Of a stretch of DNA of 63,198 nt, positions 1,378 to 63,198 are shown in pieces. Both the position numbers and the translations under genes were made by a program. Within the stretch, counting starts at the first letter, position 1; the number at the start of each line of letters is the position of its first letter. Location of the stretch: the IMG/VR virus record IMGVR_UViG_3300035136_000041, positions 1-63,198 of that record. One strand, given 5' to 3'. The stretch comes from a virus. The notes under the pieces were generated by a model, which saw nothing but the letters and a program-made list of their open reading frames with translations, did no database searches and was not told the origin of the DNA.

Positions 1378-1407
1378 GATAACCGGTACAATACAATACA
1401 TTACAAT

Positions 1408-7689: not shown

Positions 7690-7944
7690 ATGGCTCGCAA
7701 ACCAATTGAGAAATTCTTCGTTGTCCCAGGACCATTCGGTCCTGTGCGGGATCCGATAACGATGAGGATGTTATCCGACAAAGGTGAGTGGAAGCCAAAG
7801 AATATGTATTGGCTGCGCAAGGTGAAAATGCGCGACGTGGTTGACAAGACTTCGGAGAAGCGCGCTCACGACAAACAGCCGAAACTAGCGTTGGAGACAG
7901 AGCAGCAAGCCGATCAGAAGCAAAAGAAAGGTGAATCCAAATGA
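7690..7944 (+). CDS. DUF2635-like small tail protein
   Basis: An 84-residue basic protein. VPGPFGPVRDPITMRMLSDKGEWKPKNMYWLRK matches DUF2635, the small protein encoded just before the Mu-type tail sheath. The C-terminus is a charged helix. Its stop overlaps the sheath start. Confidence 0.8.
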   Translation: MARKPIEKFFVVPGPFGPVRDPITMRMLSDKGEWKPKNMYWLRKVKMRDVVDKTSEKRAHDKQPKLALETEQQADQKQKKGESK

Positions 7945-9419
7945 GCATTTCATTCGATCTCATCTCGACGAACCTACGCACTCATGGGGTGTTCACTGAG
8001 TTCTCGAATGCGCGAGCTGTCTCTACCGCTCCGGACATTCCGAGTGTCGCACTGATCATCGGACAACGTTTGGCAGCTGGTACAGTCGCGGCTGAGGTTC
8101 CTATCTCAGTTCCCAGCGCCGCTAAAGGTGAGGAGTATTTCGGTCATGGGTCGATCCTCGCCCATATGATCGATTACTTCAAGGCAGCCAATCCGTATAC
8201 GGAGTTGTGGGCCGTAGCACTCGATGATGATGGCGGCGGGACTGCTGCCACTGGGACGTTTGTGTTTTCCGGCACCGCAACCGATGATGGCGTGGTCTAC
8301 ACGTACATCGGTGGGGAGCGCATCACGACTGCTGTGTCCCTCAATGACGCTGCTGCGACGGTTGGGGCGGCTGTTGTTGCCGACATCACTGCATATGTGG
8401 CCGAGCACAACCTGCCAATTTCCGCGGCCGGCACGTCGACTGTAACGATCACATGCCTCCACAAGGGCACACTTGGAAACTACATCAATCTAGCTCAGAA
8501 TCTGATCCCAGGTGAAGCGTTGCCGGCTGGTATCACTTGCGTCATCACTCAAGTCGGCAGCGTGATTACTGGAGCAACTGATCCTGACGTTGCCGACGCA
8601 ATCACGGCCATCGGTGGATCTTGGTTCCAGACGATCATATCTGCCTACGCCGATGACACCAATCATGACAAACTCGAGGCTATGGCGCTTAGTTGGTGGC
8701 ATCCATATGAGCAAAAGGACACATCGCTATTTATTGGAGCGATTGGAAACCAGGCCGCCCTCACTGCCCTGGGGAATGCGCGCAACAGCCAGTTCACCGT
8801 TCTGATGGGTGGTGGATTGAGCTCGTCTCCGCCGTGGGCTTGGGCGGCAGTGACTGGGGCTGTAGACGCGTATGAGTCTGACCCGGCTCGTCCGAGGCAG
8901 ACTTTGACGCTCACTGGATTGCGTGCTCCAGCGCAGCCTGACATCTTTACGCAGACCGAGCGGAACACTTTGCTCTACGATGGGGTCTCGACGTTTACTG
9001 TGGGTACTGACGGAACGTGCTATATCGAGCGTTTGATCACCACGTACCAGACGAACGCTCTCGGCGTGGTAGACTCGAGTTACCTCAATCAGACTACCAT
9101 GAGGACCTTGGCCGCTTTGAGATACACCTGGAACGCCTGGGTAGCCTTACGCTTCCCGCGAGCCAAGCTTGCTGATGACACAGCCAACGTGCCAACTGGA
9201 CAATCGATTGTCCAACCGAAGACGCTTGTCAGTGAGGCGTTGGCTTGGTTCCGGTGGTGCGAGACCGAAAAAGGTTGGGTTGAGAACTGGGAGCAGTTCA
9301 AGGATGACCTGCTCATCGAGAGAGACTTGACCGACAAAGACAGAGTCAACATGCGCATGTCTCCCGACCTCATGAATCAATTCCGAGTCTTGGCTGGGCA
9401 GATTCAGTATCTACTATAA
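7941..9419 (+). CDS. Contractile tail sheath protein, Mu gpL-like
   Basis: A 492-residue protein. The RTHGVFTEFSNARA start, the central ITAIGGSWFQTIISAYADDTN block and the C-terminal TTYQTNALGVVDSSYLNQTTMRTLAALRYTWNAW and FPRAKLADD motifs are diagnostic of Mu gpL tail sheath. Residues 90-175 hold a more variable outer domain. It shows the phage is a myovirus with a contractile tail. Confidence 0.94.
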   Translation: MSISFDLISTNLRTHGVFTEFSNARAVSTAPDIPSVALIIGQRLAAGTVAAEVPISVPSAAKGEEYFGHGSILAHMIDYFKAANPYTELWAVALDDDGGGTAATGTFVFSGTATDDGVVYTYIGGERITTAVSLNDAAATVGAAVVADITAYVAEHNLPISAAGTSTVTITCLHKGTLGNYINLAQNLIPGEALPAGITCVITQVGSVITGATDPDVADAITAIGGSWFQTIISAYADDTNHDKLEAMALSWWHPYEQKDTSLFIGAIGNQAALTALGNARNSQFTVLMGGGLSSSPPWAWAAVTGAVDAYESDPARPRQTLTLTGLRAPAQPDIFTQTERNTLLYDGVSTFTVGTDGTCYIERLITTYQTNALGVVDSSYLNQTTMRTLAALRYTWNAWVALRFPRAKLADDTANVPTGQSIVQPKTLVSEALAWFRWCETEKGWVENWEQFKDDLLIERDLTDKDRVNMRMSPDLMNQFRVLAGQIQYLL

Positions 9420-17174: not shown

Positions 17175-18647
17175 ATGTTTGAAGATGTTTACGCAGACGT
17201 CTCCTCGACCATCTACGTGGCTGGCTACTACGATTCTGTCAACGACGTATACGCTCGTGTACTTCAACAGCTACTTCCTGATGGAATAATCTGGAAGTGG
17301 GCAGACGAGAGCGATGCATATAGCCTACTCAGAGCCATAGGCTACAGCTTTTGTCGCGTGGCAGAACGAGCTCAAGATCTGCTGAAAGAATTTCATCCAG
17401 ATACTATGTTAGAGATGCTCGAGGATTGGGAACGTGTCTTCGGCCTGCCTGGGGACAATCCAACTCCACCAACCACACTTGCTGCAAGGCGAGGAGCTGT
17501 ACACGCTAAGCTGCTTGGATATGGTGACCCAACAGTTTCATTCTTCGAAGCGATAGCCGCATCTCAAGGTTACACAGATGCGTATGTGAATAGGCATTTT
17601 CTGTCATCGTTTGTCCCTGGCTATGTTGCTGGAGATCCAGTTTCCTCGAAGTGGCAATATGTCTGGGAGATGGTAACCCCTAGGGGCGACGATGACACAT
17701 TGCTGCAATGGAGCTTAGGGAATGTTGCCAGAGCTCACGGTGTGATGCTGATGTTCTGGCTACTTAATCCAGAATTGCAGTCATTCGATACTCCTGGGAG
17801 CAGCGCATTTAATGCTGTAAAATACAATGGAAGTGATTTGTGGGTTGCAGTCGGAGAAGACGGTTCAATTCAGACATCTTCAGACGGTGAAACATGGGTA
17901 AAAAGGACTGCGGCCGGTGGTTATACTGGAGAATTTCATGATGTTGCATACAACGGCTCTGATCTATGGTGTATCGTAGGGGAGAATGGTGAAATACAAA
18001 CTTCTCCCGATGGGATAACCTGGACTCACAGAACAGCAGCAGCAGGAACTCCTCTGTTTAGAGCAGTTGAGCATGATCAATCTGGCTTATGGTGCGCCGT
18101 CGGCGACTCAAATATGGCGCAGACATCACCTGATGGAATTACTTGGACTGTTCACTGGCCTGTAGCCGCAGGCACACCTATACATTGGCAAGGGGTGGCG
18201 TATGGTCTTAGTGGTTGGATCATATGTGGATACTATGGAGCATCTCCTTATGATGGGAGGATACAAACTTCACCTGATGGAGTCACATGGACTGTCAGGA
18301 CTCCAGTCGGTACACCGGATCGTTTCTACGACATAAGCTTTGATGGGAGTGGCCAGTTCCTTATCGTTGGTGAGAACGGCCAGTTGCAAACGTCGGCAAA
18401 CGGAGTCGACTGGCGTAGACGAGAAGCACCCAGTGGCTCTACGATAGACCTCCTCGATGTTGTCTACGCTGGAAATAGGTGGATCGTGATTGGCGACAGT
18501 GGTGAGTTGATCGAGTCATGGTACGGTGAGGACTGGAAACGTCAAGTGTTGACAAAGACAGACGTGTATGGCATAGGCTACGGCGACGGAGTCTGTTGTC
18601 TTGTAGGTGGAACGGCAGGTGACCAAGTTTACACGGCGGAGACGTAA
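17175..18647 (+). CDS. gp48-like (DUF2313) wedge protein fused to beta-propeller
   Basis: A 490-residue protein. Residues 1-205 match Mu gp48 / DUF2313 (YARVLQQLLPDGIIWKW, RAQDLLKEFHPDTMLEMLEDWERVFGL). Residues 215-490 are a beta-propeller built from repeats such as GSDLWVAVGEDGSIQTSSDGETWVKR, with a SPDGITW Asp-box-like core in each blade. Mu gp48 lacks this. The fusion fixes a propeller directly to the baseplate, suggesting a receptor-binding role. Confidence 0.85.
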   Translation: MFEDVYADVSSTIYVAGYYDSVNDVYARVLQQLLPDGIIWKWADESDAYSLLRAIGYSFCRVAERAQDLLKEFHPDTMLEMLEDWERVFGLPGDNPTPPTTLAARRGAVHAKLLGYGDPTVSFFEAIAASQGYTDAYVNRHFLSSFVPGYVAGDPVSSKWQYVWEMVTPRGDDDTLLQWSLGNVARAHGVMLMFWLLNPELQSFDTPGSSAFNAVKYNGSDLWVAVGEDGSIQTSSDGETWVKRTAAGGYTGEFHDVAYNGSDLWCIVGENGEIQTSPDGITWTHRTAAAGTPLFRAVEHDQSGLWCAVGDSNMAQTSPDGITWTVHWPVAAGTPIHWQGVAYGLSGWIICGYYGASPYDGRIQTSPDGVTWTVRTPVGTPDRFYDISFDGSGQFLIVGENGQLQTSANGVDWRRREAPSGSTIDLLDVVYAGNRWIVIGDSGELIESWYGEDWKRQVLTKTDVYGIGYGDGVCCLVGGTAGDQVYTAET

Positions 18648-18649
18648 TC

Positions 18650-19846
18650 ATGCACAGAGTGGATTCTAGTACACGCGCAGTAGATCTGTTTGGCCCAGGA
18701 GAGGATGGCTTCACGGAGGGCAATCCCGGAGTAACTCCTGCGACTGAGACCACCGACGACTGGTTTAATGGGGTTCAGGAGGAGATATGCAACGTCATAG
18801 AGGATTCAAATATCGCCTTAGTGAAGGGCACACGCAATCAGTTATCACGCTCTATTAGAGGAGCATTTGCCACGCTGATTCTGAACAATCAAGCCGATCA
18901 AGCCAACCCAAAAAGCTTTCGGCTTGAGGGAATAACGTGGAGTAGCAGCCTTGGTTTGTTCGTCGCTGTTGGCTCTGCGGACGGAGTTGATGCATATATC
19001 GTTACGTCACCAGACGGCACCACCTGGACAGAGCGAGCGAATCCGAAGAATTTCAAGTTGTATGATGTCGTATGGTCGTCAGATCTGGCACTATTCATAG
19101 CTGTCGGAAATTCCGACGGTGGAGATGCATATATCGTTACGTCACCAGACGGCACCACCTGGACAGAGCGAGCGAATCCGAAAAGTGTTTCACTATTCGG
19201 AGTCACGTGGTGTAGCGATCTGACTTTAGCCGTAGCCGCAGGTTCGGTTGATGGTGCGGATTCATACCTAATCACATCCCCTGATGGAATTAACTGGACA
19301 GAGCGAGTCAATCCTAAAAACGTCAGCTTATATGACGTCGTATGGTCATCTGATTTAACTCTCTTCTGCGCTGTTGGGGCTGCAGATGGGGCTGATGCCT
19401 ACGTAGTCACGTCACCTGACGGTGTCACGTGGACTGAGCGCACCAACCCAAAGAATTTCGAGCTACATGGTGTTGAATGGAGCGATGAGCTTAGTTTGTT
19501 CGTTGCGGTTGGGGAGGGTGATGGAACCGACAGTTACATTGTGACCTCGCCTGACGGGACCACTTGGACTGAGAGATCCAATCCGAAGAATTTCGATCTC
19601 AAGGATGTGATCTGGAACCCAGATCTTGATGTGCTCTTTGCGGTTGGTTTTAACGACGGTAGCGATGCGTATTGTCTCATGTCGCTGGATGCCATTACAT
19701 GGTCTGAAGTCGCTATGGCAGACGACGAGGATTTATATGCTGCGACCTGGAGCCCTGATTTAGGGGTGTTCGTTGCTGTTGGCGAGCTGGATGGGGCGGA
19801 TGCGCATATAACAAAGAGCCTTAACCTACCATTCTTTGGGAGTTGA
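18650..19846 (+). CDS. Beta-propeller tail fibre
   Basis: A 398-residue protein with a short N-terminal attachment region (residues 1-80, TPATETTDDWFNGVQEEI, common in phage fibre N-termini), then seven blades of about 45 residues of the form NPKNFxLxDVxWSxDLxLFxAVGxxDGxDAYIVTSPDGTTWTE. A 59-bp stretch is perfectly duplicated (18989-19047 and 19124-19182), pointing to recent blade duplication or gene conversion. Likely receptor-binding fibre. Confidence 0.85.
   Translation: MHRVDSSTRAVDLFGPGEDGFTEGNPGVTPATETTDDWFNGVQEEICNVIEDSNIALVKGTRNQLSRSIRGAFATLILNNQADQANPKSFRLEGITWSSSLGLFVAVGSADGVDAYIVTSPDGTTWTERANPKNFKLYDVVWSSDLALFIAVGNSDGGDAYIVTSPDGTTWTERANPKSVSLFGVTWCSDLTLAVAAGSVDGADSYLITSPDGINWTERVNPKNVSLYDVVWSSDLTLFCAVGAADGADAYVVTSPDGVTWTERTNPKNFELHGVEWSDELSLFVAVGEGDGTDSYIVTSPDGTTWTERSNPKNFDLKDVIWNPDLDVLFAVGFNDGSDAYCLMSLDAITWSEVAMADDEDLYAATWSPDLGVFVAVGELDGADAHITKSLNLPFFGS
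18989..19182 (+). repeat. Perfect 59-bp repeats in propeller blades
   Basis: 18989-19047 and 19124-19182 are identical over 59 bp at a 135-bp (45-codon) period, whereas other blades have drifted. The repeat codes for the SPDGTTWTE strand-turn. Confidence 0.85.
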
Positions 19847-25183: not shown

Positions 25184-25238
25184 AGTCTAGACGATCGAGC
25201 ACAGTGTGTCAAATAAATCTACAGGGAGATGTCGATTT
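25184..25238 (-). promoter_or_regulatory. Sigma-70-type promoter with upstream AAATC/GATTT box
   Basis: On the minus strand TTGACA (25212-25207) and TAGACT (25189-25184) are 17 bp apart. GTCTAGAC overlaps the -10. Two bases upstream of the -35 is an inverted AAATC-N14-GATTT box (25215-25238). The same promoter core occurs at 47112 and 40520, and the box at 27419 and 47085. It drives the 400-residue gene ending at 23951. Confidence 0.85.
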
Positions 25239-25260
25239 TGTACAGTGTGTGGGTACACAC

Positions 25261-27386: not shown

Positions 27387-27442
27387 AGTATCGTCGATTC
27401 GGGCTCGTTGTGCAATAAAAATCTACAGGTGGATGTCGATTT
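27387..27442 (-). promoter_or_regulatory. Promoter with AAATC/GATTT box
   Basis: On the minus strand TTGCAC (27415-27410), 17-bp spacer, GATACT (27392-27387), with the AAATC-N14-GATTT box at 27419-27442 just upstream. The spacer in the box (GACATCCACCTGTA) is nearly the same as at 25220-25233. The predicted +1 coincides with the ATG at 27380. Confidence 0.7.
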
Positions 27443-27455
27443 TGTACGGTGTGTA

Positions 27456-46446: not shown

Positions 46447-46494
46447 TCGAACAAACAATGCAAAAAAGCATCAATGATTACAGCCAACTCCAGT

Positions 46495-46512
46495 TGTTAG
46501 ACGCGTCTAACA
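46495..46512. promoter_or_regulatory. 18-bp palindromic operator, copy 1
   Basis: Perfect dyad TGTTAGACGCGTCTAACA in an A/T-rich setting 49 bp after the last gene. Confidence 0.7.
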
Positions 46513-46900
46513 GAAATCCTATAAATCTGATATAAAAACCCAAAAATGGCCTCAAATATATCGAAATAATATCTTCAATATACTATCAACACTTGTAACT
46601 CACCGTAACTACTACCAGAAAAAAAGTTCTTGACTTCCTGTTTTCGGGTGTGGCACATATGATCTCCCTCCTAGTCAGGGGAGCCTCATCCGAAAGCCTA
46701 GTCACTCTGACGACAACTGCTTGATTTGAGGCTGTGAGTTGTCTTTGCCTCGTCTGTCGTTGCTTCGCCGCCTAAACCACTCATTGCCATCGACGGTGCC
46801 TTTCGTCTTATGAGCTGCTTCGGAGGTCAGCTCATGACTTAAGGCTAGGGGGGTTTTGGTGAGGGGTGTATCTCGAGCCAGCTGTCAGACTGACCTAACT

Positions 46901-46920
46901 CTGTTAGACGTGTCTAACAG
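46901..46920. promoter_or_regulatory. Palindromic operator, copy 2
   Basis: CTGTTAGACGTGTCTAACAG, the same dyad as copy 1 with a central GT in place of GC, 407 bp downstream of copy 1. Confidence 0.7.
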
Positions 46921-47084
46921 CATCACACCTATACCTACATTGCCTATTGTCCGAGATTGGATCTTTGGTAAAATCTCCATCTCCTGGGCGATCCTTGTAT
47001 TTCGGCACCTTTGGAGTCTTTTTGCGAAATCTGCATCTCCTGGGCGATTTGAGGCAACACCCACCTCCACCCACACCTGGAACA

Positions 47085-47140
47085 AAATCGTCCCGAGCCA
47101 TGTAGATTTATTTGACACAACCTGCGTAGTAGTCTAGACT
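47085..47140 (+). promoter_or_regulatory. Promoter with AAATC/GATTT box, leaderless
   Basis: AAATC (47085-47089), 15 bp, GATTT (47105-47109), then TTGACA (47112-47117), 17-bp spacer, TAGACT (47135-47140). GTCTAGAC overlaps the -10. The shared block TGTAGATTTATTTGACACA is identical to the minus-strand promoter at 25223-25205. The ATG at 47147 falls at the predicted +1. Confidence 0.85.
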
Positions 47141-47348: not shown

Positions 47349-47771
47349 ATGAGAGACAATTTAGTAGTAGTCGAGACGATCCCCGAGTACCTACGTGCCA
47401 GCCACGCGGCCGCGGGCAACAGCGGTGTATGGCCCGGCAATGGGGCCCAGCGCATCGTGATGGACCGTGGCGATGCTGAGGAGCTCGTCGAGCACGATTC
47501 CCAGTGGTCGGAGATACTCGAGGGCGAGGATCCCGCGGACTACGGCGACGACGAGCGATGCTTTCGCCCCACCCACACAATCGTCCTCGAGAGCCAAGAC
47601 GGCTACCGCGAGGAGATCCCCGTGAGGCTCGTCGACGGGGCAGCGTACACCCGTGAGGAATGGGATGCTGAAGTCCCAGCCGACTGGACTTACGACGAGG
47701 AGCGCGGATGGCTGTTCTTGGGTGAGCCGTGCCCGACTGTATTTAGCAACGTGCAGGTGATCGAGCAATAG
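47349..47771 (+). CDS. Acidic 140-residue protein
   Basis: ATG 47349 after AAGGAGACG. Very acidic: MDRGDAEELVEHDSQWSE, EGEDPADYGDDERCF, with RPTHTIVLESQDGYREEIPV beta strands. Ends VIEQ within a 65-bp repeat. Possibly an early host-takeover protein; unknown. Confidence 0.65.
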   Translation: MRDNLVVVETIPEYLRASHAAAGNSGVWPGNGAQRIVMDRGDAEELVEHDSQWSEILEGEDPADYGDDERCFRPTHTIVLESQDGYREEIPVRLVDGAAYTREEWDAEVPADWTYDEERGWLFLGEPCPTVFSNVQVIEQ

Positions 47772-47827
47772 CCCGTCTGCCACGCCCTCCCGCCGCCGGG
47801 GGCCGGAGGGTATGGCAGCGCTATCGC
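47763..47827 (+). repeat. 65-bp hairpin repeat, copy 1
   Basis: Identical to 48061-48125. It begins with the last two codons and stop of the upstream gene (GAG CAA TAG) and contains a hairpin (TGCCACGCCCTCC with GGAGGGTATGGCA; one mismatch, one G-U). It precedes the next gene's ribosome site. Confidence 0.9.
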
Positions 47828-47844
47828 TAACACAGGAGATTGAG

Positions 47845-48069
47845 ATGCCACAAACAAGCTACCATTTAGGCAACGGGCCAGCTCGCCCATTAGCGTATCT
47901 GATGAGACGTGCAGCACGGGATTGCCGCGCCGAGGATTTAGATTCGCTTTGGGCTTGGGCCACGGATCCTGCCCGAAAAAGCGGCGACCGGTGGGTTTCG
48001 CCGCTCTGCTATAGATGCGGGACAGCTGCGGGGCGGCCGCGTCTGGTGGTCACGGTAGCCGAGCAATAG
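47845..48069 (+). CDS. Unknown 74-residue protein
   Basis: ATG 47845 after CAGGAGATT. MPQTSYHLGNGPARPLAYLMRRAARDCRAEDLDSLWAWATDPA, with SPLCYRCGTAAG. Ends VAEQ in the second 65-bp repeat. Unknown. Confidence 0.6.
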   Translation: MPQTSYHLGNGPARPLAYLMRRAARDCRAEDLDSLWAWATDPARKSGDRWVSPLCYRCGTAAGRPRLVVTVAEQ

Positions 48070-48125
48070 CCCGTCTGCCACGCCCTCCCGCCGCCGGGGG
48101 CCGGAGGGTATGGCAGCGCTATCGC
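48061..48125 (+). repeat. 65-bp hairpin repeat, copy 2
   Basis: Perfect copy of 47763-47827, again starting at a gene's final GAG CAA TAG and leading into the ribosome site of the following gene. Confidence 0.9.
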
Positions 48126-53979: not shown

Positions 53980-54395
53980 TGCATGGTGGGGCTTGGCGGG
54001 GCGATGCTGGGCAAGGCGAAGTAAAGCAAGGCGAAGTAAAGCAAGGCAAGGTTAATCAGATGAATGTTTGCATAGTTTGTACGGAATTCAATCGTGGGAA
54101 TTCGACCAAGTTCGCTGCGATCGATCTTGCTAGTCGAGATATCGCCAGCTACGTGTCGAACAACTACGCTCACATCGATCGGTGTGAGGCAGTCTACGTC
54201 TATAATGCGGATGGAAGAATCAATTTCGACGTGGCGGCTTGTATTGGGTACGCTATCGCCAAAAAGAAGGTGATCTTCTCGTTCTTACCGATTGGGCTCT
54301 CTGCCATCGAGGTTCCGGTGTGCGATCCGGACGAGCTGACTAATCAGGTGATTCTGGACGAGTTTGTGAAGAACAGGATCGGGGATGAATCATGA
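53979..54395 (+). CDS. Unknown nucleoside-sensing-like protein
   Basis: Either 138 residues from ATG 53979 (TAATG overlap, GGAGG upstream) or 111 from ATG 54060. The first 27 codons cover a G-rich tandem repeat (GEVKQGEVKQG), so the later start may be the conserved one. The core VCIVCTEFNRGNSTKFAAIDLASRDIASYV with a long NADGRINFDVAACIGYAIAKKKVIFSFLP recalls DUF4406-like Rossmann proteins. Function unknown. Confidence 0.6.
   Translation: MHGGAWRGDAGQGEVKQGEVKQGKVNQMNVCIVCTEFNRGNSTKFAAIDLASRDIASYVSNNYAHIDRCEAVYVYNADGRINFDVAACIGYAIAKKKVIFSFLPIGLSAIEVPVCDPDELTNQVILDEFVKNRIGDES
54011..54051 (+). repeat. G-rich tandem repeat and duplicated leader
   Basis: CAAGGCGAAGTAAAG occurs twice in tandem (54012-54041), followed by GGCAAGGCAAGGTTAAT just before the ATG at 54060. 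The same GGCAAGGCAAGGTTAAT block precedes the RuvC-like start at 55320. Confidence 0.6.
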
Positions 54396-54401
54396 GATTA
54401 T

Positions 54402-54458
54402 CGCCAGCCCCGGGCTATAGCAGCGCGCACTGCTGTAGTTTGGACCCCGGGGCTGGCG
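54402..54458 (+). ncRNA. Two-tier intergenic hairpin
   Basis: Outer stem CGCCAGCCCCGGG (54402-54414) with CCCGGGGCTGGCG (54446-54458), inner stem CTATAGCAG (54415-54423) with CTGCTGTAG (54430-54438), 6-nt loop, 7-nt bulge. No U-run follows, so it is unlikely to be a simple terminator; it sits 16 nt before the ATG at 54475. Confidence 0.75.
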
Positions 54459-54474
54459 GTATGTGGAGATCGAT

Positions 54475-55032
54475 ATGAGTGAAGCTCTGGAACTTGTCTT
54501 CAAAGGCTCGGATAAAGTCGTAGCCTATGCATGCTCACGATGTGGGCGAATGTCGAGCTTGAGGGACTTGGCTGAGATGTGCTGCGAGCCAGACATATGC
54601 GAGTGCGGCCGAACATGTAGGAAGCCATGGACGGCATGCGATTCGTGTCGAGAGGAGAAGAGGCAGGAGAAGGAACGCAAGAAGTTTGAAGCAGCGGAGA
54701 AGATTCCGTGGGAGCGATACGACGGGCCAGTTTACTTCGACGACGAGTATTATTCGGATGTCGAGGAGATGGCCGATTGTCTTGCATGTGCAGGTATTGA
54801 GTTGCCTGAGTATGTCTGGGCTTGCACGAAGTTTAATTTGACTCTCAATGCTGTAGATATCATCTACAATGAACTCGAGGCGCAAGAGTTCCACGAGGGC
54901 GCCTTTGATCAAGTTGTCGCTATCGAGGAACTCCAAGAATCCATTGATGAGTGGTTGAGGAAGCAGGATCTAGAATCGTGGTTTGTATCTGATACAAAGG
55001 CTATTTTGTTGGAGGGGTTTCAAGATGAGTAA
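54475..55032 (+). CDS. Zinc-cluster protein
   Basis: A 185-residue protein, ATG 54475. Three CxxC pairs (ACSRCGR, EMCCEPDICEC, TACDSC) then a charged helix and an alpha/beta C-terminus (EELQESIDEWLRKQ). Multi-zinc protein of unknown role. Confidence 0.65.
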   Translation: MSEALELVFKGSDKVVAYACSRCGRMSSLRDLAEMCCEPDICECGRTCRKPWTACDSCREEKRQEKERKKFEAAEKIPWERYDGPVYFDDEYYSDVEEMADCLACAGIELPEYVWACTKFNLTLNAVDIIYNELEAQEFHEGAFDQVVAIEELQESIDEWLRKQDLESWFVSDTKAILLEGFQDE

Positions 55033-55237
55033 GTGGTTGCTTCGTTGGTGGCTTTTAGTGTTGGTGTGGTGGTGGATGCTCGGCGCTGTACTACTGTACG
55101 CTACGCTTGCCGATGGGCAGGTGGCCTCCTATATCAATCGGTGGATGATCTACAACGATTGGCTGCATTTCGGTGCGGTGTTTCTTCTCCCTCCAGTAGT
55201 TGTGTGTTTGCTATGGAGAGTATCGGAATGGCTGTAG
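55025..55237 (+). CDS. Trp-rich membrane protein
   Basis: A 70-residue protein with two hydrophobic helices (WLLRWWLLVLVWWWMLGAVLLY; LHFGAVFLLPPVVVCLLW). Starts inside the previous gene. Possible holin-like or exclusion protein. Confidence 0.6.
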   Translation: MSKWLLRWWLLVLVWWWMLGAVLLYATLADGQVASYINRWMIYNDWLHFGAVFLLPPVVVCLLWRVSEWL

Positions 55238-55319
55238 TTTGGCACTGCGGGGCGCCGCATGGCGCTGCGTAGCATGGTGGGGTGAGGCGGGGCGAGCCCA
55301 GGCAAGGCAAGGTTAATAG

Positions 55320-55802
55320 ATGATTTTTATTGGGATTGATTGTGGGCTAAAAGGAGCCGTATCTGTAGTCTGTAATGAAAAACAGCGTGTCTACGATATG
55401 CCTGTGGTGTCAAAGCTCCGCTGCAGGAAGGGCAAGAAGGTGAAGGTGAGTCAAGTTGATGAAATAGGTTTGTCTCAACTCATGGAGTCATTACCGAGTG
55501 TGTGTCGACTCACCATCGAAGACGTCCATGCAATGCCACATCAAGGAGTGACATCATCATTCAACTTCGGCCGTTCGTTTGGCGTTGTGCTCGGGGTAGT
55601 TTCTGCTCTCGGTTTTGCGTACAATCTAGTTTCTCCACAGAAATGGAAGCGTGAGTTTGGCTTGATTGGCGCAGACAAGGATGCCTCAACTTGGCTAGCG
55701 AAGAAATTGTTTCCTGGAGCCGCAGAGTTCATGACAAAGAAATCTCATCACGGCAGAGCCGAAGCATTGCTGTTGGCTGAATATGGGAGGAGGATGCTGT
55801 AG
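55320..55802 (+). CDS. RuvC-like Holliday-junction resolvase
   Basis: A 160-residue protein. IGIDCGLKGAVSVV carries the first catalytic Asp, LTIEDVHAMPHQGVTSSFNFGRSFG the Glu and the phage-RuvC loop, and KKSHHGRAEALLLAEYG the last acidic residue. It resolves branched DNA before packaging. Confidence 0.9.
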   Translation: MIFIGIDCGLKGAVSVVCNEKQRVYDMPVVSKLRCRKGKKVKVSQVDEIGLSQLMESLPSVCRLTIEDVHAMPHQGVTSSFNFGRSFGVVLGVVSALGFAYNLVSPQKWKREFGLIGADKDASTWLAKKLFPGAAEFMTKKSHHGRAEALLLAEYGRRML

Positions 55803-56044
55803 TGACTCCGGAAGAATTCGTCAGAGGTAGAGATTGGATACACGATCGTGAGAGAGCAGTAGCCAGACGTGGCGAATTGCTTACCTTGATTCGAGATCAA
55901 CTCAGAGTTGCGTTCGCAGGTGTCCCCCCGCCGTGCGCCGGCTGCGGTGCCGTGAGGAGGTGGGAACAGCTCTACCGTTGTTGGCATTGCGGCTTGTGGT
56001 TGTGCAGTCGTTGCTCGAAGAAGCATTTTGGAGCTAGACCATGA
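55802..56044 (+). CDS. Zinc-ribbon protein
   Basis: An 80-residue protein, GTG 55802 overlapping the resolvase stop. PPPCAGCGAVRRWEQLYRCWHCGLWLCSRC carries CxxC and CxxC...CxxC, a C4-type double zinc ribbon. Unknown role near the sigma-factor gene. Confidence 0.65.
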   Translation: MTPEEFVRGRDWIHDRERAVARRGELLTLIRDQLRVAFAGVPPPCAGCGAVRRWEQLYRCWHCGLWLCSRCSKKHFGARP

Positions 56045-56220
56045 CTAAGTCTAGAGCCTATCGCGAGTTCAAGCAACGCTACCATTTACCCCTTTACAGC
56101 CACATCGAACGTATGGTACTGTGGCACGGATTTGTGAGTGAGCTGTGCAACGCGAGACGGATTACTGCCGAGACGATGACTAGGTGGCTAGGAGGGCAAG
56201 ATGGCTATCATCCCAGCTAA
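56041..56220 (+). CDS. Unknown 59-residue protein
   Basis: ATG 56041 (ATGA overlap). MTKSRAYREFKQRYHLPLYSHIERMVL, with TAETMTRWLGGQDGYHPS. Small helical, possible HTH. Overlaps the next start. Confidence 0.5.
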   Translation: MTKSRAYREFKQRYHLPLYSHIERMVLWHGFVSELCNARRITAETMTRWLGGQDGYHPS

Positions 56221-56635
56221 ATCGATCAAGCTTATAGTGAATGGTGTTGAAATCACAAAAGAATATATCGATAGTCTCCGCATTGGATTTAAACCGGAGA
56301 TTGTGGATGCTTTTACAAAACCCATCCAAGGAGAGAAGTGCACTTCACTATCAGAATGGACTACAAGACATGAGGTCGAGAGATTCACAGAGTATGCTTA
56401 TTGGAAAAATCTGATAGAGGAAGATGGGGCATCACTCATAGTCGAAGTAAGGAATAATGATTGTATAGCCGCAGAGCGCATTCTGCATCAGCGAGTTGCT
56501 CGAAATCATAAATGGCCTTTCTGCCCAGTTCATCAGAGGAATGTCGATCTTGTTTTCTCTCACTTGGATGGCCGTGATGATGTGTTGATCCATATAGCCT
56601 ATTGGCTATGTAAGAAATGTGCTGAGGAAAAGTGA
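56201..56635 (+). CDS. Unknown 144-residue protein with Cys pair
   Basis: MAIIPAKSIKLIVNGVEITKEYIDSL, then DAFTKPIQGEKCTSLSEWTTRHEVERF and a Cys pair near the C-terminus (AYWLCKKCAEEK). Directly upstream of the sigma factor, stop overlapping its GTG. Unknown. Confidence 0.6.
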   Translation: MAIIPAKSIKLIVNGVEITKEYIDSLRIGFKPEIVDAFTKPIQGEKCTSLSEWTTRHEVERFTEYAYWKNLIEEDGASLIVEVRNNDCIAAERILHQRVARNHKWPFCPVHQRNVDLVFSHLDGRDDVLIHIAYWLCKKCAEEK

Positions 56636-57366
56636 AACCTCCATCAGAAAAACCACTCAGCCGCGAGGTTGAGATCGAACTGGCGAGGAAGTACAAAGAG
56701 TCGGGAGACATGCTCGCCGCCCACCGATTGATCTTGTCAAACACGGGTATGGTACGACAAATAGCCCATCAGTTCAGGCGGTATAAAGTACCTTTCGATG
56801 ATCTCGTTCAAGAAGGGTTCAGGGGTGTAATGCATGGCCTAAAGAAGTTCGATCCTAACAGAGGATACAGATTGGCCACTTATGCCGCATGGTGGGTCAG
56901 GGCATACATTATCAGGCACGTCATGGACAATTGGTCTATGGTCAAGTATGGGACTGTGCAGAGCGAGAGAGAAGCCTTTTTCAAATATCAACGCGGCGAT
57001 CTCCCATCAGATGAAGCTGAAGTAAGATTGGCCATGGGGGATTTTTATTTGGATGCTACTTTGTCTGAGTCGTCGTCGATGACCCATCTCGATATGATGA
57101 AATGTAATTCTCCAGATACGGATGAGTACGCCGCCCTCAGCGAGAAACAAATCATGGTGCAATCGGTGATCGCCGACATGGCGAGCTCAATGAGTGTGCA
57201 TGAGCGCATGTTGATCAAGTACAGGCTATTGACTCACAACCCGTGGACATTCGAGAAGTTAGCGAAGGAGTTGTCAATCTCTCGTCAACGTATACAACAG
57301 AAAGAGGCGCGGTTGAGACGCAAGCTGAGGGACCGCTTCGTAGCGGAGGGTCTCTCAATGTCCTAG
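56632..57366 (+). CDS. Phage-encoded sigma-70-family factor (RpoH-like)
   Basis: A 244-residue protein from GTG 56632. Region 2 is clear: LILSNTGMVRQIAHQFRRYKVPFDDLVQEGFRGVMHGLKKFDP, then GYRLATYAAWWVRAYIIRHVMDNWSMV (regions 2.3-2.4). Region 4 is TFEKLAKELSISRQRIQQKEARLRRKL. It lacks region 1.1 and resembles heat-shock-type (RpoH) sigma factors. It lies right before the terminase, so it likely directs the late transcript. Confidence 0.9.
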   Translation: MKPPSEKPLSREVEIELARKYKESGDMLAAHRLILSNTGMVRQIAHQFRRYKVPFDDLVQEGFRGVMHGLKKFDPNRGYRLATYAAWWVRAYIIRHVMDNWSMVKYGTVQSEREAFFKYQRGDLPSDEAEVRLAMGDFYLDATLSESSSMTHLDMMKCNSPDTDEYAALSEKQIMVQSVIADMASSMSVHERMLIKYRLLTHNPWTFEKLAKELSISRQRIQQKEARLRRKLRDRFVAEGLSMS

Positions 57367-57385
57367 AATAAGGGTGAGGTGTGTC

Positions 57386-57943
57386 ATGGCTAAAGAGAGG
57401 GACAGATCTAGGCTGAAGTTGCGGCAAGAGAAATTCTGTGAGGAGATCGTAAAGGGGAAGAGTGGCAAGGATGCCGCCCTTGCAGCCGGCTATTCGCCTG
57501 GGAACGCCGATAAGTATGCATCGTCCCTTCTGATCAATCCGGCGGTCGCCGACAGAATCCGCGACATGAAAGCATGCTCGGCCGCAATCGCTGAGATAGA
57601 GGGCTCTGACGTTGTGCGGGAATGGGCGCGTCTCGGGCTTTCCAACATACTAGATGTTGCCGAAGTCGTCGATGGAGAGCTTGTCGTCAAACCATCCAGC
57701 GAATGGCCAGAGAGTGCTGCTAGGGCAGTCATGGAAGTATCTGAGTTTCAGGGGAAAGTGAAGGTCAAGATGCATCCGAAACAATCCGCTCTGGATTCGA
57801 TTGGCAGATATCTCGGCCTGCTAGTCGACCGTCGCAAGCACGAGCATGTTGGCCCTGGTGGAGGACCTATCGAAACGAAGGGCGGACTATCTGACGAAGC
57901 CATCAGCGAAATCAGGAAGAAGATTTTGGGGTTGCCAGAATGA
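57386..57943 (+). CDS. Terminase small subunit
   Basis: A 185-residue protein from ATG 57386. RQEKFCEEIVKGKSGKDAALAAGYSPGNADKYASSLLINPAVADRI is the terminase small-subunit HTH region, followed by a helical oligomerisation region. It recognises phage DNA for packaging. Confidence 0.9.
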   Translation: MAKERDRSRLKLRQEKFCEEIVKGKSGKDAALAAGYSPGNADKYASSLLINPAVADRIRDMKACSAAIAEIEGSDVVREWARLGLSNILDVAEVVDGELVVKPSSEWPESAARAVMEVSEFQGKVKVKMHPKQSALDSIGRYLGLLVDRRKHEHVGPGGGPIETKGGLSDEAISEIRKKILGLPE

Positions 57944-59463
57944 TGAACGACGTCCCGTCAATACTTCTCGACTACCAAATCCGCTGGATGATGGACAAGT
58001 CGCAAATACGTCTATGGGAGAAGTCTCGTCGTATCGGTGCGTCGTGGGTCTGTGCGGCCGAGGCTGTCATCGAGGCTGCCAAAGCGCAAGGAGGATATGA
58101 TACGACGTATACAAGTTATAATAAAGAGAACACCAGAGAGTTCATTGACGATTGTGCTTCATGGGTAAATGTCATTCGTGGAGCCGCGGCAGAAATGGAA
58201 GAACACCGTGAGCTTGACCAAAAGACTGGTGAGGAGATTCTCACATACATGATCAGGTTTCCGTCCGGTAATAAGATACTGACAGTTAGTTCTAAGCCAG
58301 ACAACTTACGAAACCGCAAAGGAAGAATTATTATAGACGAGGCTGCTTTTGGACCGGATCTTTTCATGGCGATCAAGGCAGGTCTGGGGATAAAGATGTG
58401 GGGGGGCCGCATGGATATACTTTCGACTCATAACGGTGTTGACTCCCCTTTTAATAAATATATCCAGAATATAAAAGAAGGACGTGCCCGAGGCAGTATA
58501 TACCGCACGACGATAGACGACGCGATCGCTGACGGATTATATAAGAGAATTTGTCTTGTGCGCGGAATAAAGTGGGATCCAGATGAGGAACAAGCATGGT
58601 TAGATGACTTAATCATGTCATGGGGTGAGTTCGCCGACGAAGAACTGCGTTGTATACCACGTCGTTCAGGAGGAACATATCTGTCGCGGATGATCATCGA
58701 GGATTGTATGATCAATGTTCCGGTACTACGCTTCGATGCTCCAGATGGATTTGCTGGCCGTACTGATGAGCAGCGGCAAAAGTACATGACCGACTGGCTC
58801 AAGCGCTTCGTTGCGCCTGTGCTCGCCAGACTACCCAAGAATCTCGAGCACTGTTTTGGGGAGGACTTTGGCCGCACGGCAGACATCACAGCCATAGTGC
58901 CATGCACGGTGACGCAAGATCTCAAGCGCCGAGTGCCTTTCATTCTCGAGTTGAGAAACACCCCATTTCGCGAGCAAGAACTTGCCTTATTTTTTGTTGT
59001 GGACAGACTGCCAAGATTCAGCTATGGTGCGCTCGACGCTGTCGGTAATGGGCAGTACCTGGCGGAGAGAGCCTGGCAGCGATACGGCGGGAGTATGATC
59101 GAACAAGTGCACATCACGAGTCAGTGGTATGCAGAGAATCTCCCCCCACTGAAAGCCGCATTCGAGGATGATCAGATCGAAGTGCCACGTGATGCCGACG
59201 TACTCAATGATCTCCTGAGCTTTCGTGTAATCCAAGGCATTCCGAAACTGCCCGACATACGCAAACCATCTGTAGCCGCTGGGGTCAGATCTCGCGCTCC
59301 GACAAGACACGGGGACGCAGCGATTGGGATTACGCTGGCGCACTATTCTACCAGGCAACCAAAGGCGGCTTGTGAAGGCTACAATACGGCTGAGTCTCGA
59401 ACCCCATCACCAACAGCTAAAGGATGGGGCGGATTCAGATCCTCCAAGGGAGGGATTTTGTGA
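57940..59463 (+). CDS. Terminase large subunit, Mu gp28-like
   Basis: A 507-residue protein. LWEKSRRIGASWVCA is the Walker-A-like region, RIIIDEAAFGPD the Walker B, and LSTHNGVDSPFNKY the coupling motif. The nuclease half carries FGEDFGRTADITA and a downstream DAVGNGQYLAERA. Matches the Mu gp28 type of packaging ATPase/nuclease. Confidence 0.93.
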   Translation: MMNDVPSILLDYQIRWMMDKSQIRLWEKSRRIGASWVCAAEAVIEAAKAQGGYDTTYTSYNKENTREFIDDCASWVNVIRGAAAEMEEHRELDQKTGEEILTYMIRFPSGNKILTVSSKPDNLRNRKGRIIIDEAAFGPDLFMAIKAGLGIKMWGGRMDILSTHNGVDSPFNKYIQNIKEGRARGSIYRTTIDDAIADGLYKRICLVRGIKWDPDEEQAWLDDLIMSWGEFADEELRCIPRRSGGTYLSRMIIEDCMINVPVLRFDAPDGFAGRTDEQRQKYMTDWLKRFVAPVLARLPKNLEHCFGEDFGRTADITAIVPCTVTQDLKRRVPFILELRNTPFREQELALFFVVDRLPRFSYGALDAVGNGQYLAERAWQRYGGSMIEQVHITSQWYAENLPPLKAAFEDDQIEVPRDADVLNDLLSFRVIQGIPKLPDIRKPSVAAGVRSRAPTRHGDAAIGITLAHYSTRQPKAACEGYNTAESRTPSPTAKGWGGFRSSKGGIL

Positions 59464-59636
59464 TGGATGTATGGATAATCGAAATCAATGATACTGGGAA
59501 ATGGCGACCACTTGGGAGTTGTTTGTATCTTACTTTTGAAGAAGCAGAAAATGAAAAATTGAGCCTATATAGAATCTCGGCACAATGGAGTTCCGAGAAA
59601 CACAACATGAGAGTCAGAGCGTATCGGAGGGTATGA
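59463..59636 (+). CDS. Unknown 57-residue protein
   Basis: MDVWIIEINDTGKWRPLGSCLYLTFEEAENEKLSL; small beta-alpha, overlapping the terminase stop. Unknown. Confidence 0.55.
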   Translation: MDVWIIEINDTGKWRPLGSCLYLTFEEAENEKLSLYRISAQWSSEKHNMRVRAYRRV

Positions 59637-59639
59637 GTC

Positions 59640-59867
59640 ATGCTCTACAATTTTATAGATGATAATGATGATATTATGTTGATGACCTGCGGATTGTGTG
59701 GGTGTTTATTTAGTCGTGGTTATGGCAATCCATGTCACAATTATGATGCTCACAAAGGTGAATCTGCCATATTCTGTCCGGCATGCGCTGGAAATACTGA
59801 GTATGGATGGCGTTGTAATCCATGTTACCAACATCTTAGGAACGCCTTCTCCGGTAGAATGGAGTAA
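59640..59867 (+). CDS. Cys-rich 75-residue protein
   Basis: MLYNFIDDNDDIMLMTCGLCGCLFSRGYGNPC, then IFCPACAGNTEYGWRCNPC; about nine Cys, a likely zinc or metal cluster. Sits between terminase and portal. Confidence 0.6.
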   Translation: MLYNFIDDNDDIMLMTCGLCGCLFSRGYGNPCHNYDAHKGESAIFCPACAGNTEYGWRCNPCYQHLRNAFSGRME

Positions 59868-59870
59868 GCC

Positions 59871-61538
59871 ATGCTCTACGATCATCGAGGACGACCGGTA
59901 AAAATCTCCCAGCTTACCAAGGAGGTTGCAGAGCCTAGCATAGCTGGCGTGAGAACTGTATGGCATGACTCCGTTGCCAATGATCTAACTCCGACTACGC
60001 TTGGTGCAATTCTACTGAAGGTAGATCAAGGAGATATCATTGAGTATCTGACTCTCGCCGAGGAGATGGAAGAGCGAGACATGCACTACTCGTCCGTCCT
60101 CAGTACGAGAAAGCTTGCTGTGACCGGGTTGGACGTCATGGTGGAGGCTGTCTCCGATGACCCGAAGGACGAAGAAATTGCCGATGCTGTTCGTGGGATT
60201 ATTGAGACAGACGCATTTGATTCTATGCTACCAGCTGCGATGGACGCTATAGGGAAGAGTTTTTCCGTTATAGAAGTCATGTGGGATAGATCTGGAAATC
60301 AGTGGACCCCATACAAATACAAATGGCGCGACCCGAGATTCTTTCAGTTCGATTTGACCACCAAAGACGAGCTGCGCATGAGGGACGATGAAGATTTAGT
60401 CAATGGGGTGGAGCTGGCCCCATGGCAATTCATCGTCCACAGGCCACAGATAAAGATGGGTGTGACGATCAGATGCGGAATAGCCAGAATGGTATGTGTT
60501 GGATACATGCTCAAGGGTTACACCCTGAAGGATTGGTGGGCCTTCATGGAAGTGTTTGGTATGCCGTGGCGAGTTGGTAAATACCCACCGAAAGCTACTA
60601 AAGAACAGAAAGACGCGCTCTTAGCTGCTGTCAGACAGATGGGTGCGGATGCTGCCTGTACGATACCAGAAGATATGATGATCGATATCATCGAATCATC
60701 TAAGACGTCGGGAGGCGATAAGTTATTTTCAGGCTCAGCTGACTGGATCGATAAGCAGATTTCCAAGGCTGTACTCGGCCAGACTGCGTCGACTGAGGGA
60801 ACTCCTGGTAGGCTAGGCAATGAGGAGTTACAGGGCGAAGTACGCGATGATATCAAGACTTCCGATGCCAAGCAATTATCAGCGACAATCAGACGAGACC
60901 TGATAAAGCCATTTGTGGATCTGAACTTTGGGCCGCAGGAGAAATATCCAAAATTCCGTTTAGTGATCGAGGAAAAGAAAGACCTCAAGCTATTAGCTGA
61001 AGCGATCACCCCATTTATCGACCGCGGTCTTCGGGTCCAATCGAGTCTCATTTTGGATGAGTTCGGGTATCCAGAGGCAGAGGATGGCGCAGAGGTTCTC
61101 CAATCGATAAAGGCTGGTGGGCAGCCAGCAGTCAATCAACCAGAGCCTGACGAAGACATGGAAGAGCCCGCATTGCAACGCGAGCAGAAAGCTGCCTTGG
61201 TAGAGATTTGCAGACGCATCAAGAGAGGCGAGCAGATCTCGAGCGAGGAGCGTCAGCTGTTTGTGGCCAGCATGGCTCTTGCGGCTGCCAATCCTGGTTC
61301 TGACTACGACGAGATTGACCGTCTAGTCACAAAAGAGCTCGACGACTGGAGGCAGGTGATGGACCCCGTGCTTCAGCCGATAATCGATCATGCTGAAGCT
61401 TCAAATAGCTATGAGTTGTTTCTTGAAGGCCTCGAGGATGCGCTGGCGAATATCGATACAGCAAAGTTTCAAGAGAGACTGGCTACGATGACCTTGATAG
61501 CCAGAGGCAGAGGGGATGCGACGGATGACGTGCAATAG
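59871..61538 (+). CDS. Portal protein, Mu gp29-like (DUF935)
   Basis: A 555-residue protein. LAEEMEERDMHYSSVLSTRKLAVTGLDVMVE and APWQFIVHRPQIKMGVTIRCGIARMV are DUF935 portal signatures, with FMEVFGMPWRVGKYPPKATKEQKDALLAAVRQMG and QISKAVLGQTASTEG. It forms the dodecameric packaging ring. Confidence 0.93.
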   Translation: MLYDHRGRPVKISQLTKEVAEPSIAGVRTVWHDSVANDLTPTTLGAILLKVDQGDIIEYLTLAEEMEERDMHYSSVLSTRKLAVTGLDVMVEAVSDDPKDEEIADAVRGIIETDAFDSMLPAAMDAIGKSFSVIEVMWDRSGNQWTPYKYKWRDPRFFQFDLTTKDELRMRDDEDLVNGVELAPWQFIVHRPQIKMGVTIRCGIARMVCVGYMLKGYTLKDWWAFMEVFGMPWRVGKYPPKATKEQKDALLAAVRQMGADAACTIPEDMMIDIIESSKTSGGDKLFSGSADWIDKQISKAVLGQTASTEGTPGRLGNEELQGEVRDDIKTSDAKQLSATIRRDLIKPFVDLNFGPQEKYPKFRLVIEEKKDLKLLAEAITPFIDRGLRVQSSLILDEFGYPEAEDGAEVLQSIKAGGQPAVNQPEPDEDMEEPALQREQKAALVEICRRIKRGEQISSEERQLFVASMALAAANPGSDYDEIDRLVTKELDDWRQVMDPVLQPIIDHAEASNSYELFLEGLEDALANIDTAKFQERLATMTLIARGRGDATDDVQ

Positions 61539-61677
61539 CATTGCTTGGCTGCCGATCTCCAGGCCGGATACCTGCCGCATGCGCATAACGGGTGACCGTG
61601 CGTGGCAGCCGCTCCACTATGTGGAGTTTTCATGCGTGTGCCGGTGCGGCGGCCCGGCCAACAATGGTGTAATGTGA
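61525..61677 (+). CDS. Small Cys-containing protein
   Basis: A 50-residue product, MTCNSIAWLPISRPDTCRMRITGD, ending FSCVCRCGGPANNGVM. It starts within the portal's last codons. The Cys pattern (C..C, CVCRC) suggests metal binding. Moderate support only. Confidence 0.4.
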   Translation: MTCNSIAWLPISRPDTCRMRITGDRAWQPLHYVEFSCVCRCGGPANNGVM

Positions 61678-61883
61678 TTGCCCCAGTCCGCATCGATAAG
61701 CTTGACAAACGCCGCAGAATGTGGTGGGTATATGGCAAGTGTGACGTATGCGGAAGTCGGATCGAACAGATCGTGCTCACATTTCCTCATGAGATTCGCG
61801 AGGAAGCTCAGTGCCCAAACAAAGCGTGCGGTAAGAAGTACGCCATAGAGGAAAGAAATGAAAAAGAAAAAGACCAGTCGTAA
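61674..61883 (+). CDS. Zinc-finger protein
   Basis: A 69-residue product from GTG 61674 (overlap), VIAPVRIDKLDKRRRMWWVYGKCDVCGSRIEQIVLTF with CPNKACGKKYAIE, a four-Cys zinc finger. Overlaps the next start. Confidence 0.6.
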   Translation: MIAPVRIDKLDKRRRMWWVYGKCDVCGSRIEQIVLTFPHEIREEAQCPNKACGKKYAIEERNEKEKDQS

Positions 61884-62346
61884 GGATTTGCTCGAAATGA
61901 TCGCTGACCTGAATAGCAAATTCTCTACTGCTGTGAAGAGGGTCAGAGAGCTCGAGTCAGCCATGGACTCTGGGCAATTGGTCGGTAGACCAGAAGGGAT
62001 CATTTTGCTAGCAGCGAAAGTCGCGCATGAAGTGAACCGAGCCTATTGCGAATCCATGGGAGACGACAGCCATGTGCCGTGGGCCGAAGCGCCGGATGAT
62101 CATAAAGGTATCGTTATAAAAGCTGTGCAAGATATCGCATCTAATCCGTCTATTTCAGTTGCTGAATCGCACGCTTTGTGGTGCAGACACAGAAAACAAG
62201 ATGGGTGGGTGTATGGGAACGAATATGATTTTGCGAAGAGAATAGATCCGTGTATTGTGCCATATAATGATCTTCCAGAAGAACGCCGCACAGTTGACGC
62301 CTTGTTCGGTGCGGCCGTCAGGGTTGTGTTGGGAGTGCAGCGATGA
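61858..62346 (+). CDS. Unknown 162-residue protein
   Basis: MKKKKTSRKDLLEMIADLNSKFSTAVKRVRELE; coiled-coil start, then EGIILLAAKVAHEVNRAYCESMGDDSHVPW and a CRHRKQDGWVYG region like the RyR-domain motif (EVNRAYCxxxGD...PW, often annotated RyR). Possibly a RyR-type protein, which in phages has unknown or signalling-linked function. Confidence 0.7.
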   Translation: MKKKKTSRKDLLEMIADLNSKFSTAVKRVRELESAMDSGQLVGRPEGIILLAAKVAHEVNRAYCESMGDDSHVPWAEAPDDHKGIVIKAVQDIASNPSISVAESHALWCRHRKQDGWVYGNEYDFAKRIDPCIVPYNDLPEERRTVDALFGAAVRVVLGVQR

Positions 62347-62546
62347 CTGAGTCACAGAAACGTCGAGATGCTTTTGCACAAGCAGCTCTAAAAGGCCTAT
62401 GCGCCACTCCACTGTTCGAGCGGGTTATCTCAACCTCAACCGGCGCAAGTGAGGTAGCTATGGCAGCAATGGTGGTAGCTGATGCAACGATAGCTATGCT
62501 TGACAAAGTCTCGCCGCCAAAAAGGGTAAGGGAGGCTGCCAAATGA
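62343..62546 (+). CDS. Unknown 67-residue protein
   Basis: MTESQKRRDAFAQAALKGLCATPLFERVISTSTGASEVAMAA; helical. Overlaps both neighbours. Similar small proteins occur beside RyR-like genes in phages. Confidence 0.55.
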   Translation: MTESQKRRDAFAQAALKGLCATPLFERVISTSTGASEVAMAAMVVADATIAMLDKVSPPKRVREAAK

Positions 62547-62842
62547 GCCTCTACGTCATAGACAACGGTGCCAACTACTCGGATCACGCAATCTACTTTG
62601 TGGAGACTGACAAGCCACTTTCTGAGGTGCAGAAGTGGTGTGAGATTGCAAGCACTGGCGATTATGAGAAATTCACCGTCTGTGGGCATGGAAAGGAAAT
62701 AGAATGGTTAAACAATGTGATTTGGAGGAGGATGTCGCTCGAGCAGTTCATCGAGGACAATGTTTCCATGGATATACCAAGGGCCTTGAAGTTGAGCGAC
62801 AAGGTATGTTGTGGGAGGTTCAAGAATGATCAAAGTACCTAA
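62543..62842 (+). CDS. Unknown 99-residue protein
   Basis: MSLYVIDNGANYSDHAIYFVETDKPLSEVQKWCEIASTG; alpha/beta, acidic. Not recognised. Confidence 0.55.
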   Translation: MSLYVIDNGANYSDHAIYFVETDKPLSEVQKWCEIASTGDYEKFTVCGHGKEIEWLNNVIWRRMSLEQFIEDNVSMDIPRALKLSDKVCCGRFKNDQST

Positions 62843-63053
62843 AATCAAGAAAGGCCCGATGGGTTACGCGATGGACTACCGTGCAGCCATGGGTAGACTT
62901 GTTGAAGTGTCGCAACAGTGGTGTGCTGCGTTTGATGCTGGGGATAACGGTACTTTAGTCGAACTATATGATATGTTCGATGAGATTACCAATGAGCTTG
63001 GCGAAGCAGCAAATGCACTTGCAAAATCGATTGGCACTGGTGACGACTCATGA
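62826..63053 (+). CDS. Unknown 75-residue helical protein
   Basis: ATG 62826 (GGGAGG upstream), MIKVPKIKKGPMGYAMDYRAAM, then a long helix (VELYDMFDEITNELGEAANALAKS). TGA overlaps the ATG at 63050. Confidence 0.55.
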   Translation: MIKVPKIKKGPMGYAMDYRAAMGRLVEVSQQWCAAFDAGDNGTLVELYDMFDEITNELGEAANALAKSIGTGDDS

Positions 63054-63198
63054 AAAGACCACGATGTTGCAAACGCCCAATGTTTAGATGGGCACACACA
63101 GAGATAGAGACAGGTCATCTTGGCCCTGGTGGGCACCAATACTGGGAGGTTTGGCGTTGTCTTAAATGTGGTAAAGAACTCGATCCATACCCACGCCC
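63050..63198 (+). CDS. Junction-spanning small protein, 5' part
   Basis: The true start (ATG 63050, MKRPRCCKRPMFRW) of the gene completed at 20-449 when the contig is closed. ATGA overlap with the previous gene supports the start. Confidence 0.85.
   Translation, partial: MKRPRCCKRPMFRWAHTEIETGHLGPGGHQYWEVWRCLKCGKELDPYPR
63073..63198. repeat. Terminal direct repeat, right copy
   Basis: Second copy of the 126-bp overlap at 20-145. Joining the two copies closes the genome at about 63,053 bp and restores a 150-residue gene spanning the junction (63050 through the join to 449). Confidence 0.95.

Follow-up and report, generated by a model that had tools for sequence, protein, structure and literature searches.

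The sigma factor gene and its neighbourhood

The stretch of viral DNA analysed here, which we call the window, comprises the 63198 bases of an IMG/VR record, in which positions 63073-63198 repeat positions 20-145 exactly (126 nt), and the molecule is therefore circular or permuted. On its plus strand, at positions 56632-57366, lies an open reading frame of 244 amino acids that starts with GTG and has no internal stops, the opposite strand of the same interval having many. The encoded protein matches the Pfam models Sigma70_r2 (PF04542; 2.7e-17, 62.7 bits, cut-off 24) at 56728-56934 (+), the region of core binding and -10 reading, and Sigma70_r4 (PF04545; 1.9e-6, 27.8 bits, cut-off 24.1) at 57199-57330 (+, residues 190-233), the region of -35 reading. 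Both scores exceed the gathering cut-offs, and the matches are therefore far beyond chance and place the protein in the sigma-70 family; a sigma factor gene with regions 2 and 4 at this place, as an earlier note on this DNA had claimed, is thus confirmed by the reading frame and the Pfam models. The top Foldseek match of the structural model, a poor one (pLDDT 61), was E. coli sigma-32 (8hkc_E, 1.6e-8). Comparison with the sigma gene of a related phage (G001, see below) over 242 codons (66% amino acid identity) gave a dN of 0.22 and a dS too large to estimate, and the protein has therefore been kept by selection.

The start of the sigma gene overlaps the preceding reading frame by 4 nt, and only 19 nt separate its end from the ATG of the gene for the small terminase subunit, terS (57386-57943, +; PF03592, 1.6e-20; 69% identity to the terS of the relative), which could instead begin at a GTG further upstream (57374). 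The gene for the large terminase subunit, terL (57940-59463, +; phrog_2), overlaps the end of terS and is followed by that for a Mu-type portal protein (59871-61538, +; PF06074, 3.3e-98), so that the sigma gene does lie directly before the packaging genes, as had been noted, and judging by gene content would stand at the head of the late region. From 57386 the late block runs to the end of the record and, across the circle junction, from position 1 to about 20300, taking in on the plus strand a Mu F-like minor head protein (449-1162; phrog_220), the head maturation protease (1425-2843; phrog_328), the major head protein (4419-5312; phrog_371) and the sheath of a contractile tail (7941-9419; phrog_165). 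In the tail region, proteins encoded at 17868-19587 carry repeated SPDGxTW units, in part with a period of 135 nt.

Upstream of the sigma gene, also on the plus strand, are a RuvC-like Holliday junction resolvase (55320-55802; phrog_1770; 66% identity in G001), a cysteine-rich protein of 80 amino acids (55802-56044; 89% identity in G001) and a 144-aa reading frame (56201-56635) that is absent at the same place in G001. The cysteine-rich protein had no match among phages; it is more conserved than the sigma factor (89%, compared with about 65%) and may be a partner of the latter.

Descent from RpoH and loss of part of region 3

Examination of the protein with NCBIfam models identified sigma-32 as the best match (TIGR02392, 2.2e-44, 152.1 bits). 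This score is well under the equivalog cut-off of that model (323.1 bits), so that the protein does not qualify as an RpoH ortholog; the sigma factor of the relative scored 164.6 bits and Salmonella RpoH 430. Sigma-32 was also the top model for each half of the protein scored separately (120.9 and 44.0 bits), so that descent from RpoH holds for its full length and it is no chimera, and the label "RpoH-like" previously given to it was apt for the whole protein and for each half. In a tree of 14 sigma factors, a small set with some long branches, the proteins from the window and from G001 fell within the RpoH clade with 97/97 support, and tree and profile together make them members of the RpoH lineage, broadly understood. 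Among the cellular proteins seen, those nearest to the phage protein were RpoH proteins from alphaproteobacterial plasmids (Azospirillum, Sphingobium and Phenylobacterium), with identities of 33-36%.

The phage protein thus resembles RpoH of the alphaproteobacterial type in the best models of both halves and in its clade, and differs from it in its score below the equivalog cut-off, in the absence of part of region 3, in a changed region 4.2 and in being carried by a phage. The N-terminal half stops at position 127 of TIGR02392 and the C-terminal half begins at position 158, with seven residues between them; residues 121-127, encoded at 56992-57012 (+), hence replace model positions 128-157, and the alignments agree that RpoH region 3 has been shortened here by about 23 positions. 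The full region 3 of an RpoH ortholog, as modelled by TIGR02392, is therefore not present, and the claim that the sigma factor is complete holds for region 2, region 4 and, in all probability, the 3.2 linker, but not for region 3. A sigma factor encoded on an Acidiphilium plasmid (NZ_CP041717.1, 7938-8807) likewise lacks much of region 3; its gene adjoins genes of nucleotide metabolism and recombination.

Alignment with sigma-70 showed that DLVQEG in region 2.2, which we take to be the core-binding stretch, and WW in region 2.4, whose role we likewise assume, are kept in the phage protein, the conservation of the core-binding residues being a matter of alignment only. Sigma-70 Q437 and T440 correspond to A and I in the phage protein, while the region 4.2 residues E585 and R588, presumably two of those with which sigma-70 reads TTGACA, are replaced by Q and Q in the window and by Q and H in G001; the Azospirillum plasmid RpoH has Q at the place of E585 as well, so this substitution is not unique to the phage. 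Because of A and I, and Q and Q, at residues with which sigma-70 contacts its promoters, we infer that the promoters of the phage sigma factor differ from those of sigma-70.

A conserved chassis and an exchanged virion module

Relatives of the phage were sought in viral contigs with the sigma factor, three other proteins of the conserved part of the genome and TerS. Scans with the sigma factor yielded no relatives beyond two IMG/VR records (L002 and L003) whose sigma factor is about 66% identical, and scans with the other proteins led to these two again and, for TerS, to one further, weak match (L011). L003 lies within G001 (55195 bases), and L002 seems to come from the phage that L003 represents, so that the comparison stands on a single independent relative. 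In the phage collection as a whole, 157 of 50,697 records matched the sigma protein, all of them at less than 60% identity and some being bacterial contigs. A scan of genome contigs gave a single weak match, from Evansella (25% identity, query residues 10-103 only), which is no true relative, and six faecal records that carry no annotation were left out of the comparison.

In blastp searches the genes shared with G001 were those of lysis, the minus-strand early genes, the plus-strand early genes, sigma and terS, most of them with identities of 50-89%, whereas from terL to about 20300 no match at 1e-5 was found except for one small reading frame (59640-59867). That reading frame matches a gene of the early block of G001 (62%), a sign of gene movement. 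The order resolvase, cysteine-rich protein, small reading frame, sigma and terS is common to both phages, apart from the additional 144-aa frame before sigma in the window and some 950 additional bases between sigma and terS in G001. Since G001 shares the lysis, early, sigma and terS genes and has a different virion module, the comparison indicates that sigma and terS belong to a constant chassis and that the virion module, of which terL is the first gene, is the exchanged part. The two virion modules are not entirely unrelated, because both portals match phrog_113 at the profile level. The earlier suggestion that the virion module had become coupled to a different regulatory switch is hence better reversed, different virion modules having been joined to a conserved side that carries sigma and terS.

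With its Mu-type head, portal and tail sheath genes the window resembles Mu-like phages, and the earlier note had set the sigma factor against the C-type activator of that group. Mor/C activators turn on middle and late genes in Mu-like phages, the same job that we suppose for the phage sigma factor. Their family (PF08765) was found in two of two control Mu-like phages and in neither the window nor G001, which bears out the contrast as far as the activator is concerned. The transposase MuA (PF02914, PF09299) was likewise present in both controls and in neither of the two phages, and an integrase (PF00589), found in 14 of 14 control genomes, was missing from both. Because MuA, Mor/C and integrase are absent, the phage is best described from its gene content as a hybrid that has Mu-type virion genes and is otherwise no transposable Mu-like phage, and the comparison itself fails on this point. 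Fusobacterium phage phiRTG5 has both a Mu-type transposase and an annotated sigma factor, and transposable phages with sigma factors therefore exist as well.

Promoters of the early and late blocks

Intergenic gaps were taken from a simple gene caller, with hand correction for some genes. De novo analysis of the early gaps of both phages (60 gaps) gave the motif TTGAC-18-TAGACT with a score of 62.3, compared with 38.7-51.2 in six shuffles; because this motif is of the sigma-70 type, the early genes look host-read. The early blocks also hold an element of about 45-56 nt that occurs three times in the window and as often in G001. The window copies (ACAAAATCGACATC..CCTGTAGATTT) lie at 25195-25250, 27399-27454 and 47073-47119, just upstream of sigma-70-like promoters, and two of them are followed, by eye, by TTGACA-17-TAGACT and TTGCAC-17-GATACT; the element is probably an operator or an activator site. 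Other features of this part of the genome include palindromes of the type TTAGACGCGTCTAA at 46493-46514 and 46855-46919, conserved in G001 and possibly operators; identical 66-nt hairpin repeats at 47762-47827 and 48060-48125 (RNA z -3.3 for the first copy), similar hairpins being found in three G001 gaps, in two cases on the opposite strand; and a very stable two-part hairpin at 54380-54462 (-46.7 kcal/mol, z -5.3, no T run), with a conserved counterpart before the same gene of G001.

The late gaps gave no convincing sign of the distinct late-promoter consensus proposed in the earlier note. De novo two-box motifs scored 19.8 in the window (13.4-21.7 in shuffles) and 13.4 in G001 (12.7-20.3), and gapped pairs of 5-mers gave two triples, against none to four in eight shuffles. 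Both phages together yielded a two-box motif that exceeded all six shuffles (32.6 against 20.0-30.1), which we rejected because its second box is mostly ATG context and partly the start codon. RpoH promoters have the form CTTGAA/CCCCAT, and alphaproteobacterial forms were scanned along with it: such sites were not enriched in the late blocks (6 against 13.6 +- 4.7 in the window, 4 against 11.7 +- 4.4 in G001), and none lay within late gaps. Two loose matches to RpoH-type promoters occur in the early gaps of the window. None of the known late consensus sequences of phages was convincingly enriched; the late block of the window has one match resembling an SPO1 middle promoter on each strand, where 0.2 is expected. 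One place that may hold a late promoter is the AT-rich gap at 1378-1424 (+) before the protease and head genes, which has TACAAT-like hexamers and no TTGACA.

A fixed scan for sigma-70-like sites (at least 10/12) counted 1 in the late block of the window against 2.4 +- 1.5 expected, and 5 in that of G001 against 1.9 +- 1.4; a separate scan of the interval 54000-63198 of the window found 4, fewer than the 10.3 expected. With a sigma-70 pattern chosen post hoc, after these sites had been spotted by eye, all three sites of the late block of G001 fell into gaps, at 26404 before terS, 28227 after terL and 31238 before the protease and head genes, and none of 500 shuffles reached three; with the same post hoc pattern the late gaps of the window (636 nt) had no such site. 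A tRNA-like stretch noticed by eye near 28250 of G001 was not called by ARAGORN. The three sites count against a late block read purely by the phage sigma factor in G001, and together with the fruitless motif searches and the lack of enrichment of RpoH-type sites they leave the proposed late consensus without a counterpart in our results. The late block of the window may differ from that of G001 in this respect, or transcripts begun upstream may run on into it, since sigma overlaps the previous reading frame by 4 nt, terS follows 19 nt on and terL overlaps terS.

Role of the phage sigma factor

On balance we favour the view that this is a functional sigma factor of the phage, descended from RpoH of a bacterium and shortened in region 3. 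Such a protein probably reprogrammes the RNA polymerase of the host in late infection, in the manner of other phage sigma factors, and its position between the early block and terS, together with the absence of Mor/C from both genomes, makes a late switch plausible. The sequence of events would begin with the capture of a bacterial RpoH by the phage and the loss of part of its region 3; in infection, host sigma-70 would read the early promoters, and the phage sigma factor would then bind the host core polymerase and direct it to late promoters. Core binding, timing of expression and use of late promoters are here what we infer from sequence. Speaking for a late sigma factor are the late gaps of the window, which have no sigma-70-like site, and its late block as a whole, which is not enriched in them; speaking against it are the three late-gap sites of G001 and the lack of a convincing late motif of any kind.

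The same sites in G001 lend themselves to an explanation in which late genes are transcribed by host sigma-70 with read-through or another activator, the phage sigma factor having a minor or modulating part, for instance by competing for core. The tight plus-strand chain of genes that in the window leads from the early genes through terL fits this explanation, and transcription from upstream may simply continue across the 19-nt gap into terS and terL. We nevertheless consider it unlikely, as the late gaps of the window lack such sites and selection has kept the sigma gene. A somewhat smaller chance attaches to the sigma factor serving middle promoters, such as those that carry TTGACA-17-TAGACT next to the repeated early element, with late genes being read through or left to host sigma-70. 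The element is conserved, with its three copies per phage, and the late genes of G001 have sigma-70-like sites, but the promoters beside the element look like ordinary sigma-70 promoters, and the Q and Q of region 4.2 (Q and H in G001) stand at two residues that we assume to read TTGACA. Least probable of all is that the sigma factor is an auxiliary gene captured from a host RpoH and acts chiefly on host genes, such as a regulon of the heat-shock kind that includes chaperones for virion assembly, for although its descent from RpoH and the failure to find a phage promoter for it agree with this, a protein with part of region 3 lost and region 4.2 changed is unlikely to read host RpoH promoters unchanged, and it occupies the same place before terS in both phages.

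Returning to a late sigma factor, we advance as a less likely possibility a more specific model, in which an RpoH captured from an alphaproteobacterium-like host, reduced in region 3, became an all-purpose switch for late genes where an unchanging early and lysis chassis meets the virion module, so that whole virion modules could be exchanged behind it. If this were true, Mu-type contractile or other virion modules would still be expressed late, since neither the switch nor terS would leave the chassis. Should the sigma factor drive the late genes, the two phages would offer a simple test of how late control is kept despite replacement of the whole virion module, and of which promoter a sigma-32 reduced in region 3 can read.

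Comparison with known late regulators

The phage sigma factor is most likely a late sigma factor acting like gp47 of Salmonella phage 7-11. In the available text on that phage, gp47, like gp36 of phiEco32, sends the host core enzyme to late promoters, which have a bipartite consensus of their own, early promoters being left to host sigma-70, and a search for intergenic motifs found nothing until transcription starts had been mapped (PMC8948821). The two proteins differ in that gp47 has 185 amino acids and is annotated as ECF sigma-like, whereas the protein of the window is RpoH-derived; they show no significant sequence match, and the annotation of the 32 kb around gp47 includes no terminase. 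Closer in descent is the RpoH-like sigma factor of Salicola phage SCTP-2, likewise a phage-borne RpoH homologue, which differs in having a full region 3, in grouping with gammaproteobacterial RpoH and in belonging to a phage of 440 kb without an annotated terminase in the 6.7 kb around it, so that the two apparently represent separate captures of RpoH. In place within the genome, the sigma gene resembles the Ltr regulators of staphylococcal phages, to go by the available part of the report on them (PMC13123087). By description, late regulators of the Ltr/RinA type are small and basic and act at a host promoter of the sigma-A type, whereas the protein of the window is itself a sigma factor and possesses both region 2 and region 4. 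In our limited search of open papers we found none on an RpoH-derived late sigma factor beside a terminase. Sigma factors of T4 (gp55) and SPO1 (gp28 and gp34) are named as essential in the accessible text of PMC9429907. Late sigma factors of phages are thus already known, and what the present case adds to them is an origin from RpoH, the loss of part of region 3 and a position at the joint where the virion modules of the two phages have been exchanged.
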